Assembly (NCBI GenBank): GCA_009928645.1
Contig: SACH01000026.1
Coordinates: forward strand, 1-40,018
DNA: 40,018 nt
Source: Gammaproteobacteria bacterium
GTDB taxonomy: Bacteria > Pseudomonadota > Gammaproteobacteria > Chromatiales > Chromatiaceae
Reading direction: 5' to 3'
Made by a program: the position numbers and the translations under genes. The first letter of the stretch is position 1; each line of letters opens with the position of its first letter. The notes under the pieces were generated by a model, which saw only the letters and a list, made by a program, of their open reading frames with translations, ran no database searches and was not told the DNA's origin. Shown piece after piece: positions 15,282-20,020 of the stretch.

Positions 15282-15920
15282 TTAAATGGAGCAAATCCAG
15301 GGCACGTCAATGATTCCGTCGCGGACGAAACCCGAGGGCTGACCGAGTTCGTCGTAGCGCAAACAGTTATCGTCCTGAAACTGGAAGTCGCCGATATAGC
15401 GGTGGGAGACCTTGCGCCGCAGATGGTCAACCAGGTCGAGTCCGAGAAAGTGGCAGACCAGGGCGCGGATCACCCCGGCATGGGCGACCAGTAAAAGCGT
15501 GCGCTCCGGGTGCCGGTTGGCCAGTTCCAGCACCTGAGCGCAACACCGGGCCTGCATCTGGCGAAAACTTTCCCCCCCGGGGAAGACGTAATCCGGATCG
15601 GTCTTGAACTGGGGATAGGCGGTGCTGGCGCTGTCCTTATCGAGACCAAAGAGGTCGCCATAGTTGACCTCATTGAAGGCCAAGTGGCTCTCTACCCCCG
15701 CCAGTCCCCGCCGCCGGGCAAAATAGCGGGCGGTTTCCCGGGCCCGCCCCAGGTCACTGGAGAAGATGGCATCGATGACCAGGTGCTGCTGCTCCAGACA
15801 CTGATCGACCGCACGCAGATCCTCCTCCCAGTTCTTGGCCGGGGGGGCGTCGCCCCAGCCCATGATGCGTTGCGCCTCGTTACTTTGGGTGCGGAAATGG
15901 CGGACCAGGATCAGACGCAT
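15282..15920 (-). CDS. Histidine phosphatase superfamily protein with an RHF variant of the RHG motif
   Basis: A 212-residue member of the phosphoglycerate-mutase-like histidine phosphatases. The phosphoacceptor is H8 in LVRHFRT; the usual RHG glycine is Phe here. The second catalytic His is in VAHAGVIRALVCH, and an acidic segment NEVNYGDLFGLD lies where E/D acts as proton donor. The superfamily includes mutases, sugar and nucleotide phosphatases and SixA-type phosphohistidine phosphatases; the substrate cannot be decided. It follows the response regulator gene by 19 bases as the last gene of the kinase/two-component operon, so its substrate may be linked to that system. Confidence 0.82.
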   Translation of the reverse strand: MRLILVRHFRTQSNEAQRIMGWGDAPPAKNWEEDLRAVDQCLEQQHLVIDAIFSSDLGRARETARYFARRRGLAGVESHLAFNEVNYGDLFGLDKDSASTAYPQFKTDPDYVFPGGESFRQMQARCCAQVLELANRHPERTLLLVAHAGVIRALVCHFLGLDLVDHLRRKVSHRYIGDFQFQDDNCLRYDELGQPSGFVRDGIIDVPWICSI

Positions 15921-15939
15921 GCGTGGCTCCCCCCTGCCC

Positions 15940-16365
15940 TCATTCAGCGGTGAGGCTGAACAGATCGTCGATCACCGTCTGGATGGCCGTGGTGAATTGC
16001 TCGAAGGAGTGGGGCTTGACGATGTAATCCTCCGCCTCGTAGCGGAACGCGGCGGCGCGGTCATTGGGCTCGTTGGACGAGGTCAGCACGATCACCCGCA
16101 GATCCCGCAGGGCCGGGTCGGCCCGCAGGGCCTTGAGGAACTCGATCCCGCTCATGCGCGGCAGGTTGAGGTCCAGCAGGATCAGTTCCGGACGGGAAGG
16201 GAACTGGACCTCACCTTCGCCCCGCAACAGAGCAAGGGCCTCGGTGGCGGTGCGGGCTACATGCAAGGGGATGGTGATCGCGCGGCGCTTGAGGGCACGC
16301 TGCACCGTCATGACATCGACGCGATCATCCTCCACGAGCAGGATGCCGCCGTTAGGGTCACTCAT
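15940..16365 (-). CDS. Single-domain response regulator (Rcp1/CheY type)
   Basis: A 141-residue stand-alone receiver domain. It has the acidic pair D13-D14, phosphoacceptor D65 (LLDLNLPRMSG), T95 (VLTSSNEP) and K117 (YIVKPHS). The EDD start and the SSNEPND insert are typical of the Rcp1-like group that partners phytochrome-type kinases. There is no output domain, so it acts by protein-protein contact or as a phosphate relay. Its ATG overlaps the stop of the histidine kinase gene by 4 bases, so the two are a cognate pair. Confidence 0.92.
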   Translation of the reverse strand: MSDPNGGILLVEDDRVDVMTVQRALKRRAITIPLHVARTATEALALLRGEGEVQFPSRPELILLDLNLPRMSGIEFLKALRADPALRDLRVIVLTSSNEPNDRAAAFRYEAEDYIVKPHSFEQFTTAIQTVIDDLFSLTAE

Positions 16366-18368
16366 CTCGATGCCTCTTGTTGAGTTGTTATCTGGTCTGC
16401 GCCGTCTTCCGCGGCTTGTTCCTGCCGAGGCCAGGAAAACACGAACCGGCTGCCACGCCGGCCATCCTGCCTGAGATCGGCATCCTCGATGTGAATGGTG
16501 CCGCCATGCTCTTCCACCAGTTTCTTGACCAGGGCCAAGCCGATACCGGTATTGACGCCGTAGTCCTTGACCGCCAGGGTCTGAAACATCAAAAAAATCT
16601 TGTGCCGGAACTCGGGGGGGATGCCGGGCCCGTCGTCCTCGACGCTGAAGACCCAGCGTTCGCCCTCCGCGCGGCCAGCGATCCTGACCAGGCCCGCCTC
16701 ACGATCATGGTGACGGATGGCGTTGGTGATGAGATTGGCGAACACCTGGGACAGGTGCAGCCGGTCCGTGTGCAAGGTCGGCAGGTCCGGGGCGATCTCC
16801 ACCTGGAAGTCCGGCGGTGGATCCAGGGAATCCACGACCTCCCGCACCAGCTGACCAACATCCACCGTCTCCAGGCTCCCCGCCGCCCGGCCGATCCGGG
16901 AGTAGGCCAGGAGCCCCTCGATCAGGGCGTTCATCCGCGCCACGCGGTCGCGCAACAGATCGAGCTGCTCCTGGGTCTCCGGGGTCAGCCGCTCCTGAAG
17001 GTCCTCCTTGAGCCATTCGGAGAGATTGGCGATCCCGCGCAGGGGCGCCTTGAGGTCATGGGAGGCAACGTAGGCGAACTGCTCCAGATCCCGGGCGCGT
17101 CGTTCCGATTCAGCGGTGCGGCGCTCCACCCGCTGTTCCAGGGTGATATTGAGGTACTGCAGGGCCTCTTCCGCCCGGCGGCGGTCGGCGATCTCCTTGT
17201 TCAGGGCCTCGTTGGTGTGGGATAGCTCCAGCGTCCGTTCCGCCACCAGCCGCCGCACCTGGCGATCACGGCCGATCAGGGCGAAGAAGTAGATGCAGGT
17301 GAGAAAGGTAAAGGCCAGCCCCCCGACCAAGACCAGGGACCCGCCCCAGCCCTCGGCGCTAAAGGCCCCCGGTACCGGCGCGCAGACCAGGGTCCAGGTC
17401 TGGTCTCCGACCCGTACCTGGCCCTCATAGGTCGCGGCAATGGGTTGGCTGTCCCCTGGCCAGTCCGCCCCGTCCCGGGCACGGGAGCGATGGACATGGA
17501 ACAGCCGCCGCTCCCCACCCTCACCTGCGGTCCAAAAGGCGATATCCACCCCGCTGGGCCCCAGGCTGGCCAAGGCCTGATCGATAAGGGAGCCAAAGCG
17601 AAAGACGCCGACGGCAAAGCCCCGTACCTCCCGTTCCTCGATGGATCCCGGTTCGAGATCGGTCTCCCCCGGCGCCTCCAGCCCCTCCAGGTCCTCGACC
17701 CGGGAAAAGACCGGGCGATAGACCGCGAAGTGACTACCCTCGGGTTTGTCGTCCTGGCCCTCCGGTTCACCCACCACCAGGGTCCGGCGCTCAACCGCCA
17801 GGTTGAGCAGTTCGAGCACCTGTGGCTCGGCGGCCAGATCCAGACCGAGGAGCGGGGTGTTTTCCGGATAGGGCTGGACGAAGAGGATGGGAAAGTGTAC
17901 CGGCCGGTCGGGCGCCGGGCGCCGGTCACCACCGGGGAGCGGATCCTGAATCTGGAAGCGAGGGATGCCCAGGCGCACCTTGGCGGCGAAGTCCCGCCGC
18001 TCCTCCCGCGTCACCCGCGGCGCCCATTGCAGGGACTGGATGGCGCGATTGCGCTTGAGGGTCGGGGCGACGAACTCCCGAAACTGACGCCGTGTCACCC
18101 GCGAGGCGGCGTCGAAGAAGCCCCCCAGGTCCTGGACCAAACCCAGGGCATAGTCCATTTCCCGTTGCACCACCAGCAGCCGATCCCGGGCCGCCTCGGA
18201 GAAACTGGCAAAGCGCCGCTGATGCTCCAGTTCGCCGATGCGCGCCGAGACCAACCATGAAGCCAGGACCCCGAGCAGGGCGACCAGAAAGATCGGTGTA
18301 TAGCTCCAGAGGGTAGCGGGCGCTTCCGCCTGCCGCCCTAACCGCCAGCGGCTGAGCAGCCAGGTCAC
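16362..18368 (-). CDS. Membrane sensor histidine kinase with periplasmic CHASE domain
   Basis: A 668-residue sensor. TM1 is about 24-42, a CHASE-type periplasmic domain about 75-290, TM2 about 344-364, a coiled coil about 370-425, then HisKA with phosphoacceptor H437 (YVASHDLKAPL) and HATPase with N box (NLITNAIRH), G1 (EDDGPGIP), F region (FLMFQTL) and G2 (GIGLALVKKLVEEHGG). The CHASE ligand is unknown. The kinase core is of the class that works with Rcp1-like regulators, matching the next gene. It overlaps both neighbours by 4 bases, so kinase-like protein, sensor and regulator are translationally coupled. Confidence 0.93.
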   Translation of the reverse strand: MTWLLSRWRLGRQAEAPATLWSYTPIFLVALLGVLASWLVSARIGELEHQRRFASFSEAARDRLLVVQREMDYALGLVQDLGGFFDAASRVTRRQFREFVAPTLKRNRAIQSLQWAPRVTREERRDFAAKVRLGIPRFQIQDPLPGGDRRPAPDRPVHFPILFVQPYPENTPLLGLDLAAEPQVLELLNLAVERRTLVVGEPEGQDDKPEGSHFAVYRPVFSRVEDLEGLEAPGETDLEPGSIEEREVRGFAVGVFRFGSLIDQALASLGPSGVDIAFWTAGEGGERRLFHVHRSRARDGADWPGDSQPIAATYEGQVRVGDQTWTLVCAPVPGAFSAEGWGGSLVLVGGLAFTFLTCIYFFALIGRDRQVRRLVAERTLELSHTNEALNKEIADRRRAEEALQYLNITLEQRVERRTAESERRARDLEQFAYVASHDLKAPLRGIANLSEWLKEDLQERLTPETQEQLDLLRDRVARMNALIEGLLAYSRIGRAAGSLETVDVGQLVREVVDSLDPPPDFQVEIAPDLPTLHTDRLHLSQVFANLITNAIRHHDREAGLVRIAGRAEGERWVFSVEDDGPGIPPEFRHKIFLMFQTLAVKDYGVNTGIGLALVKKLVEEHGGTIHIEDADLRQDGRRGSRFVFSWPRQEQAAEDGADQITTQQEASR

Positions 18369-19546
18369 TCCAGGGCCTCCTGGTCCGGCGGGAAGCGCGC
18401 GACGATGTGGCGCATGACCTCATCCATGACCTGATTGATGGTTTCATCCAGTTCCCAGTTGACGATGACCGGGATATCCGCCTTTTCCGCCTGATCCACC
18501 ATGAAGTTCTGCAGGGTCCAGATCTCGGACAGCATCTCGCGATGGCGCACCGAGTCCCGGTCCGGGGCCTCCCGGCTGCGGCGCTGGAATTGCTCGTCCA
18601 GCCGGGCCCGGGTCGAGACCGCCAGGATCAGGGGGACCACTACCGCCTTCTCCCGGATCTCCGTCAGGTCCAGATGGGTCGGTAGCACATGGACCCCATC
18701 GACGATCAGATCCGTCCGCTCCTTGACCGCCCGGGCGATCGTCGCCTCCAGGGCCACGCGCACCGTACCGAACTGGGCCAGAAAGCCGGCAATCACCGGG
18801 TCCTGGGAGCCCTTGCCGGACCCCTCGACCCGGGGCAGGCCCCGCCAGGCATCGAAACTCGAATAGCCCAGGGTGGGTGCCACGTGGGGCACCAGGTAAC
18901 AGCGGATGATCTCGCGCATCAGGTCGGTGGACTGGGTGCGGACGATGTCGAGCAGATAGGCCAGCCGGGTCGCCACCGTGCTTTTGCCGGCCCCGGTGGC
19001 CCCGCCGATGAGGATGACCAGGGGCAGGCCGCTGTCATTGAAACGGCAGCGCGAGAGGAAGCGATTGGCGGCGGCCTTCATGCCCGCGCCCTTGAGGGTC
19101 GCGTAAATGATTTTACGCAGTTCCTTGTGCCCGACCTGGACCAGACCCTGCTCGCGCAGGCTGGCATGGACCAGAGCGGCCCCGCGGGCGGCCACCGCGG
19201 CGCGGATGCCGCAACCCTCCAGATGCCGGGCCAGGAAGCCGGTGGAGAAGGGCTCGACACCGCCCGCGCGTTTGACCAGGACGCGATTGATGCCACCGCC
19301 GGCATCGTAGTCGGTGCGGGCCTCGCTCCCCAGCCGCCGTTCCACTTCCTCCCCGACCAAGCGGCGCAGTTCCGCCGTCGTCAGGACCTCGGCATCCCCC
19401 ACCAATTGGTTACGCACCCGCTTAGCGATGGCATAGGCTTCGGTAAAGGCCAGACCCGCGTCCACCAATGACTGCACCAGGATACCGCGCAGGAAGGGCA
19501 CGCGTTCCCCGGTCACCGACTCCACCATAAAGGCCTTGCTCGCCAT
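18365..19546 (-). CDS. ATP-cone plus P-loop kinase, 2-phosphoglycerate-kinase-like
   Basis: A 393-residue protein. Residues about 1-155 hold two ATP-cone-like repeats (VPFLRGILVQSLVDAGL and VEPFSTGFLARHLEGCGI, each followed by a helical ELR segment). From about 175 there is a P-loop kinase with Walker A GGATGAGKST at 181-190, a Walker-B-like LIVDGVHVLP, and an Arg-rich lid (RRSREAPDRDSVRHRE). This layout matches archaeal 2-phosphoglycerate kinase, which makes 2,3-bisphosphoglycerate, and its bacterial relatives. The bacterial substrate is not established. It is the first gene of a coupled operon with a CHASE kinase, a regulator and a histidine phosphatase. The start ATG follows no strong ribosome site. 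Confidence 0.82.
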   Translation of the reverse strand: MASKAFMVESVTGERVPFLRGILVQSLVDAGLAFTEAYAIAKRVRNQLVGDAEVLTTAELRRLVGEEVERRLGSEARTDYDAGGGINRVLVKRAGGVEPFSTGFLARHLEGCGIRAAVAARGAALVHASLREQGLVQVGHKELRKIIYATLKGAGMKAAANRFLSRCRFNDSGLPLVILIGGATGAGKSTVATRLAYLLDIVRTQSTDLMREIIRCYLVPHVAPTLGYSSFDAWRGLPRVEGSGKGSQDPVIAGFLAQFGTVRVALEATIARAVKERTDLIVDGVHVLPTHLDLTEIREKAVVVPLILAVSTRARLDEQFQRRSREAPDRDSVRHREMLSEIWTLQNFMVDQAEKADIPVIVNWELDETINQVMDEVMRHIVARFPPDQEALE

Positions 19547-19576: not shown

Positions 19577-19942
19577 TCACCGCCCGGGTACTTGGTCGAG
19601 TTGCGCGAAGATGCACTTCAGCGCGTCCTGGTTGTCGCCGGGAAGGAAGGTATTGAGGTTAGAAGCATAGCCCTGACGATCGATGCGCCCGAAATAGAGC
19701 TTGGAGGTCTGATCGATGAAATAGATGTTGGCGTCGCCGGTCTCGACCTGGACCAGGTAGTTCAAGGGCTGCCGGCCAAGCTCCCGCTTCCCGCACGCCT
19801 TGACGAGCTGGTCGACGAAGGCCTCATCACCCGCATCCTCGACCAGGGAATCGGGGGCTACGAGGGTGCCGCCACAACCGGCCAGCGCCAGGAGGGTCAG
19901 CGAGGCCAGGAGCATGGCCAGGATGCTGTTCGGAGGGGACAT
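19577..19942 (-). CDS. Small lipoprotein of unknown function
   Basis: 121 residues with a lipoprotein signal: hydrophobic stretch then LALAGC, lipidated at Cys of the AGC box. The mature part has two further cysteines (KACGK, LKCIF) and no recognised domain. I chose ATG 19942 over one 39 bases upstream because GGAG lies about 11 bases before it and the signal peptide then begins properly (MSPPNSILAM). It lies 30 bases upstream of the kinase-like gene on the same strand and could be the first gene of that operon. Confidence 0.72.
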   Translation of the reverse strand: MSPPNSILAMLLASLTLLALAGCGGTLVAPDSLVEDAGDEAFVDQLVKACGKRELGRQPLNYLVQVETGDANIYFIDQTSKLYFGRIDRQGYASNLNTFLPGDNQDALKCIFAQLDQVPGR

Positions 19943-20020
19943 GGCAGGAAGATCTCCAGGCGGGTTGAGGTTGGCCATCATTCTATACGTAAGGCCTGTC
20001 AGTTTTCAGTTGGGGAAAGG

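Follow-up and report, generated by a model that had tools for sequence, protein, structure and literature searches.

Four co-directional minus-strand genes lie within a 40,018-nucleotide stretch of gammaproteobacterial DNA (the window), and they raise the question of why a 2-phosphoglycerate-kinase-like protein and a histidine phosphatase should be encoded together with a membrane sensor kinase and its regulator (Table 1). KIN and CHK overlap by 4 bases (GTGA), as do CHK and RR (ATGA), and a 19-base gap separates RR from HP. The ORF coordinates, which are those of the preliminary description, and the domain matches agree with the coupled four-gene operon proposed there.

Table 1. Coordinates of the operon, its domains and its upstream neighbour in the window
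Feature	Position	Strand	Details
KIN: 2-phosphoglycerate-kinase-like protein	18365..19546	-	393 aa; PRK12337 2.1e-73, PRK04220 7e-72
Tandem ATP-cone-like region of KIN	19037..19534	-	~residues 5-170; Pfam match residues 91-164, ATP-cone 4.8e-5
P-loop kinase domain of KIN	18392..19033	-	residues 172-385; fold search
CHK: membrane CHASE-domain sensor histidine kinase	16362..18368	-	668 aa, GTG start; CHASE, HisKA, HATPase_c
CHASE sensor domain of CHK, predicted periplasmic	17499..18101	-	residues 90-290; PF03924 1.9e-27
RR: Rcp1-type single-domain response regulator	15940..16365	-	141 aa; Response_reg 1.1e-20
HP: histidine phosphatase (branch 1), KIN-associated subfamily	15282..15920	-	212 aa; His_Phos_1 1.3e-35
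Small lipoprotein-like gene	19577..19981	-	hydrophobic N-terminus with LAGC

KIN aligns to 2-phosphoglycerate kinase (2PGK) models over its whole length. Its best NCBIfam match, the Deinococcus/Thermus enzyme PRK12337, spans residues 7-387 and has the same two-part architecture, although the Deinococcus/Thermus protein is longer (492 model positions); the archaeal enzyme (Methanothermus fervidus; PRK04220, COG2074) is likewise matched in full, including the ATP-cone and the P-loop kinase domain. However, KIN scores below the equivalog cut-offs of both models (247.6 against 603 bits for PRK12337, 242.4 against 343 bits for PRK04220) and is therefore named 2PGK-like rather than 2PGK; it further differs from the archaeal kinase in its bacterial occurrence and in its linkage to two-component and histidine phosphatase genes. 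The Deinococcus/Thermus gene is itself of archaeal type and shared with the archaea (PMC1274311). The Walker A motif GGATGAGKST (GxTGxGKST) and the QSTD region are conserved among KINs, and the kinase domain adopts a P-loop kinase fold with Z scores of ~13 to UMP/CMP, adenylate and gluconate kinases; the fold searches returned general P-loop kinases only and do not decide the substrate. The ATP-cone of KIN scores 24.3 bits, slightly under Pfam's 25.8, and is matched in 58 of the 59 KINs scanned (19/20 of those linked to two-component genes, 39/39 of the others), while the structure model matches the ATP-cone ribonucleotide reductases 5im3 and 5olk (Foldseek). A sequence search for a solved structure of a KIN relative found none. 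Assignment as a zeta toxin was rejected, as just the P-loop stretch matches (24 bits), whereas the full-length match is to 2PGK. We know of no two-component linkage for the Deinococcus/Thermus kinase, and of no enzyme activity for any member of the KIN clade.

In CHK, the CHASE domain is flanked by two hydrophobic helices, beginning near residues 26 and 347, and is followed by HisKA (3.3e-12) and HATPase_c (1.7e-24). RR consists of a receiver domain alone, with the phospho-acceptor Asp and the conserved Lys present, which bears out the earlier remark that the regulator carries no output domain. Its best PDB matches are the bacteriophytochrome regulators, RcpA/RcpB and Rcp1 (6xvu, 5te9, 1k68, 1i3c), and no other protein of the operon is as well conserved (mean identity 71%, against 53% for KIN). 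The Cph1-Rcp1 and bacteriophytochrome pairs thus include the closest relatives of RR (Rcp1/RcpA/DrBphP-type), likewise without an output domain, but the input of CHK is CHASE rather than photosensory, and the pair is locked to a metabolite kinase gene.

The operon is carried by sulfur-oxidising bacteria as a conserved unit. The order KIN-CHK-RR is strict in ~20 non-redundant, diverged gammaproteobacterial loci, and on the KIN tree the linked KINs form one clade (support 99/94); the linked form arose once and has clearly been lost once. The full order KIN-CHK-RR-HP, pieced together in part from contigs that share exact overlaps of 127 and 141 bases, is found in the window and in L072, G100 and G132, and recurs in two other genera; G014 is consistent with it. 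A lack of co-occurrence among relatives had been named as grounds for abandoning the unit, and the recurrence in other genera instead establishes it as real. Outside the family, 397 further genomes sampled from the phylum gave no convincing KIN (P-loop noise only), a scan of genome contigs returned a few loci labelled as other phyla, and a plasmid search gave one weak Deinococcus match.

The pairing of KIN with HP is specific. HP belongs to a distinct subfamily with its own motifs, in 21 members of which the catalytic residues R7 and H8 (RH motif), R59 (second Arg), E84 (Glu donor) and H147 (second His) are invariant. Known identities were rejected on score, HP reaching 50.8 bits against a curated cut-off of 81.7 for the cofactor-dependent phosphoglycerate mutase GpmA (TIGR01258), 96.5 against 162.9 for the alpha-ribazole phosphatase CobC (TIGR03162), and likewise falling below the cut-off for PspA. 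The subfamily is present in 21 of the 23 genomes with KIN clade A, the clade of the window, against 3/33 with KIN-B only and 1/137 without KIN; at the genus level the figures are 12/13 against 2/48. This co-occurrence holds even where the two genes are unlinked. Judging from these sequence patterns, it is very probable that one compound is the target of both KIN and HP, and because the co-occurrence is so specific, opposing action on it is the simplest reading.

A physiological context is suggested by the gene neighbourhoods of the wider KIN family. Phosphate transporters or PhoU-type genes lie near 19 of the 38 non-redundant KIN loci, where ~0.8 would be expected. Among loci with two-component genes, G132 continues from CHK-RR-HP into a Na/Pi cotransporter-PhoU gene, Usp and PstB; L037/L079 reads PHO4-PHO4-PhoU_div-KIN-CHK-RR; and L048/L095 reads PhoU_div-PHO4-AAA-metallophosphatase-KIN-CHK-RR-KIN_B-ApgM. 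In the window itself, no phosphate transporter or PhoU gene was found adjacent to the operon or elsewhere, which weighs against a phosphate role for the operon. PHO4-family proteins can carry sulfate too; the Pst and Na/Pi transporters are not accounted for by sulfate transport. We consider the phosphate-transport neighbourhood to be the probable context of the family. The PhoR-PhoB and Pst-PhoU systems resemble the operon and its relatives in combining a membrane histidine kinase with phosphate-transport genes, whereas the operon has a CHASE sensor and a kinase/phosphatase pair and is without a DNA-binding output. The earlier interpretation is supported as to the conserved unit and the kinase-phosphatase pairing but overlooked the phosphate-transport neighbourhood. 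In addition, the sister clade KIN_B adjoins apgM, a phosphoglycerate mutase gene, in 15/63 loci, a linkage that recalls the archaeal kinase of cyclic 2,3-diphosphoglycerate synthesis.

We propose, at what we judge to be even chances, that the operon serves phosphate homeostasis: the KIN/HP pair would act on a soluble organophosphate pool and be tuned by the two-component pair. KIN would use ATP to phosphorylate a small acid that already bears a phosphate, 2-phosphoglycerate being the likeliest, which would yield 2,3-bisphosphoglycerate; HP would take that phosphate off again. Between them, the two enzymes would determine how large this pool is, and the pool in turn would buffer cellular phosphate or report on it. 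The ATP-cones may let KIN sense the adenine nucleotide level. CHK would sense a periplasmic cue through CHASE and phosphorylate RR; CHASE ligands are diverse, and the cue may therefore be other than phosphate. Without a DNA-binding domain, RR would most likely act by binding KIN (or HP), although its target could lie outside the operon. Direct gating of the cycle by RR, through which an outside signal would control the level of a soluble bisphosphorylated metabolite (2,3-bisphosphoglycerate or similar) serving as phosphate store or second messenger, is a tentative suggestion that we hold to be on the doubtful side. 2,3-Bisphosphoglycerate, already guessed at in the preliminary description, is the leading candidate metabolite; the guess gains strength because the sister clade adjoins ApgM, and loses some from the sub-cut-off scores of KIN.

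It is possible, at somewhat under even chances, that KIN phosphorylates something else, be it an inositol phosphate, glycerate, a different sugar acid phosphate or a protein, with HP undoing the reaction. The same sub-cut-off scores allow for it, the relative PRK12339 is a mevalonate-3-phosphate 5-kinase, the fold matches take in nucleotide and gluconate kinases, and plant homologues have been proposed as inositol monophosphate kinases (PMC4844318). The ApgM linkage points instead to phosphoglycerates, and an inositol phosphate is disfavoured by the lack of inositol-1-phosphate synthase in 11 of the 16 KIN-A genomes, including that of the window. By contrast, it is highly improbable that the role of KIN is to prime a cofactor-dependent phosphoglycerate mutase with 2,3-bisphosphoglycerate. 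2PGK chemistry, as established for the archaeal enzyme, yields exactly this compound (PMC1224877), but most KIN genomes encode a cofactor-independent mutase, as does that of the window (GpmI; TIGR01307, 1.9e-183), in which no GpmA exceeds the curated cut-off; in this genome, 92% complete, the cofactor role is largely excluded.

The two-component pair might also be merely co-transcribed, with KIN and HP forming a phosphate-linked enzyme pair and RR targeting something else without controlling either, which we regard as rather unlikely. Single-domain regulators often act elsewhere, and KIN-HP occurs without the two-component genes in L035/L076, L050/L104, L051/L105, L107, L108 and L110. Against this stand the strict KIN-CHK-RR order across the diverged loci, with its single origin and one clear loss, and the high conservation of RR, which suggests a fixed partner besides CHK. 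That unrelated housekeeping and signalling genes came together by chance is barely conceivable: tight packing is common in high-GC genomes, but the order is conserved in other genera and KIN and HP co-occur even when unlinked, and a chance arrangement is therefore ruled out.

The proposed phosphate-homeostasis role has parallels in methanogens, where cyclic 2,3-diphosphoglycerate, made via 2PGK, is a proposed store of carbon and phosphate (PMC1224877), and in plants, where LPA1 influences phosphorus storage. In rice, overexpressing the 2PGK homologue Lpa1 increases both seed phytate and total P; LPA1 is proposed to act in the inositol phosphate pathway (PMC4844318) and has no two-component linkage. 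We found no assigned physiological role for bacterial 2PGK-type proteins, and the repeated position of KINs beside Pst, Na/Pi, PHO4 and PhoU genes, together with a dedicated phosphatase, yields a specific prediction on phosphate handling. The operon thus suggests an undescribed way to store or signal phosphate, and in its two-component-linked form signalling would end in metabolism instead of transcription.

Finally, the single promoter-like site found is within chance expectation and was given no weight, and no Rfam family was found in the window. The small lipoprotein-like gene, overlooked in the preliminary description, gave no family match in domain-model searches. It is co-directional with KIN, 30 bases upstream of it, and is kept in the genus, where it also adjoins the operon in L031/L072 and L032/L073 and is probably the first gene of the transcript.

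The genes for the 2-phosphoglycerate-kinase-like protein (KIN), the CHASE histidine kinase (CHK), the Rcp1-type single-domain response regulator (RR) and the histidine phosphatase (HP) lie where the preliminary description placed them, all on the minus strand, and the 4-base overlaps at KIN/CHK (GTGA) and CHK/RR (ATGA) and the 19-base gap before HP are confirmed. As a lipoprotein-like gene holds the same place before KIN in the closest relatives, the transcript in the window's genus probably comprises five genes, this one included; purL, downstream, is outside the conserved unit. The genome is that of a Candidatus Thiosymbion-like Chromatiaceae bacterium, the nearest record bearing the label Candidatus Thiosymbion.

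Genes of the operon and the gene preceding it
Gene	Position	Strand	Remark
Lipoprotein-like gene	19981-19577		30 bases before KIN
KIN	19546-18365	minus	
CHK	18368-16362	minus	
RR	16365-15940	minus	
HP	15920-15282	minus	

KIN matches 2-phosphoglycerate kinase (2PGK) models over its full length, below their equivalog cut-offs. Its N-terminal part contains two ATP-cone-like repeats, of which Pfam detects one in the window's protein, slightly under threshold; an ATP-cone match is present in 58 of the 59 KINs examined. In a structure search, the model predicted for KIN (mean pLDDT 86.7) matches ATP-cone ribonucleotide reductases, and residues 172–385 form a P-loop small-molecule/nucleotide-monophosphate kinase fold (Z ∼13 to UMP/CMP, adenylate and gluconate kinases), with a conserved Walker A motif and QSTD region. 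CHK has a CHASE domain flanked by two hydrophobic helices, with HisKA and HATPase_c, and RR is a receiver domain only, closest to bacteriophytochrome regulators, RcpA, RcpB and Rcp1. HP belongs to branch 1 of the histidine phosphatases; its catalytic residues are intact, and it is not within the curated cut-offs of mutase, CobC or phosphoserine phosphatase models.

Conservation of the gene order elsewhere, the check proposed initially, is borne out. In the window and at locus L072 the gene after RR is HP; in genomes G100 and G132 the operon is divided between contigs whose exact end overlaps (127 and 141 bases, inside CHK) give KIN-CHK-RR-HP, and G014, in which contig ends share sequence without an exact end overlap, is consistent with the same order. 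This order occurs in three genera, the window's included, and tubeworm symbionts (g21) have HP upstream (HP-KIN-CHK-RR).

Of the 194 genomes sampled in the window's family, 57 carry a KIN homologue; convincing ones are absent from 397 other genomes sampled in the phylum. A tree of 63 non-redundant KINs (90% identity clusters), read with gene context, has two main groups: clade A, which holds the window, and clade B, mostly adjoining the phosphoglycerate mutase gene apgM. Within clade A, a single, well supported group (99/94; 22 rows) gathers the loci bearing the two-component system (TCS; CHK and RR). The TCS is seen in 20; L076 has HP directly after KIN instead, and L075, the G132 locus, ends inside CHK and carries the TCS by contig overlap. 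Given this single group, the TCS would most simply have joined KIN once and been retained while the proteins diverged to ∼45% identity. Within this group RR is the most constrained of the compared proteins, with a mean pairwise identity of 71% versus 53% for KIN and 51% for CHK (CHASE part, 43%). In a Lamellibrachia barhami symbiont (L045, 2112-7182) the CHK-RR pair is tandemly duplicated after KIN, the first CHK copy reading as broken ORFs. Three KIN loci are labelled Halobacteria (L094), Neomarinimicrobiota (L111) and Bacteroidetes (L116); the first two nest among gammaproteobacterial sequences, so their contigs look misbinned, and L116 groups with Rhodothermales.

At an E-value of 1e-30 or lower, members of the HP subfamily are present in 25 of the 194 genomes: 21/23 with clade-A KIN, 3/33 with clade B only and 1/137 without KIN, clade membership being read from the tree for loci included in it and otherwise from percent identity of KIN matches. 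By genus the counts are 12/13 versus 2/48 (Fisher p ∼7e-10, only indicative because the genomes are related). Because many of these HP genes lie away from KIN, the co-occurrence is independent of linkage. KIN-HP without the TCS is found in several lineages. Judged from such comparisons, KIN and HP belong together.

Outside the TCS form, phosphate genes are frequent beside KIN: Na+/Pi cotransporter-PhoU with Usp (L080, L098, L105), PHO4 with PhoU_div (L107, L110, L113, L121, L123, L142, L144) and Pst operons with PhoU (L050, L054, L060, L116-L119, L122). Counting only non-redundant loci with flanks of 2.5 kb or more in each direction, 19 of 38 have such a phosphate gene near KIN; the transporter density measured, with ample room left for Pst, would predict ∼0.8. 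Among TCS-form loci, G132 continues from CHK-RR-HP into a Na/Pi cotransporter-PhoU gene, Usp and PstB; L037/L079 has PHO4-PHO4-PhoU_div upstream on the same strand, with ∼1 kb of uncertain coding between PhoU_div and KIN; and L048/L095 reads PhoU_div-PHO4-AAA-metallophosphatase-KIN-CHK-RR-KIN_B-ApgM. No phosphate transporter gene lies within the window; elsewhere in its genome (G000), phosphate-transport genes form a cluster together with a further CHASE kinase. This cluster (contig C297, 24002-61968; L139, L140) holds two Na/Pi cotransporter genes, five PHO4-family genes, some of which may carry sulfate, several PhoU_div genes, a CHASE-PAS histidine kinase, a sigma-54-type regulator and a sulfate permease. 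CNNM/CorC pairs are also KIN neighbours outside the TCS form, and they recur near clade-A KIN (L090, L093, L096, L097, L099, L100). L142 (4134-12450) and L144 (2007-9555) contain runs of PhoU_div-PHO4-P-loop protein-KIN_B-CNNM-CNNM, the former ending in HP. A small P-loop protein and a ∼490 aa calcineurin-like phosphoesterase are repeatedly found next to PHO4 and KIN (L048, 4786-6850; L143, 2550-6231; G000 C297, 57595-59741).

Beside the gene order, single origin, co-occurrence, neighbourhoods and intact active sites established by sequence and comparison, we propose that KIN would make, and HP remove, 2,3-bisphosphoglycerate (2,3-BPG) or a similar bisphosphorylated acid, the pool storing phosphate or signalling its level, and that CHK and RR might tune KIN or HP on a periplasmic cue. 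Methanogens have been proposed to store carbon and phosphate as cyclic 2,3-diphosphoglycerate, made via 2PGK (PMC1224877), and overexpression of a rice 2PGK homologue raised phytate and total seed phosphorus (PMC4844318). The literature searched, covering few subscription papers, yielded none joining bacterial 2PGK to phosphate transport or a two-component system. The operon is real, conserved and, as far as could be searched, undescribed; its parts are of known kinds, and what is new is their combination and the phosphate link.

As to substrate, clade-B KIN adjoins ApgM in 15/63 loci, and ApgM over the cut-off lies beside KIN in most genomes having it. ApgM interconverts 3- and 2-phosphoglycerate, so clade-B KIN very probably works on 2-phosphoglycerate; by homology, clade-A KIN may do likewise. 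A 2,3-BPG product serving as mutase cofactor was rejected, since the window's genome has a cofactor-independent mutase, with no cofactor-dependent mutase and no ApgM over the cut-off. An inositol phosphate role, as proposed for plant relatives, is disfavoured by the absence of inositol-1-phosphate synthase from 11 of 16 genomes tested, the window's among them. In G080 (C1, 2433961-2436343; L067) KIN_B and ApgM are both in fragments, which suggests decay or sequencing errors.
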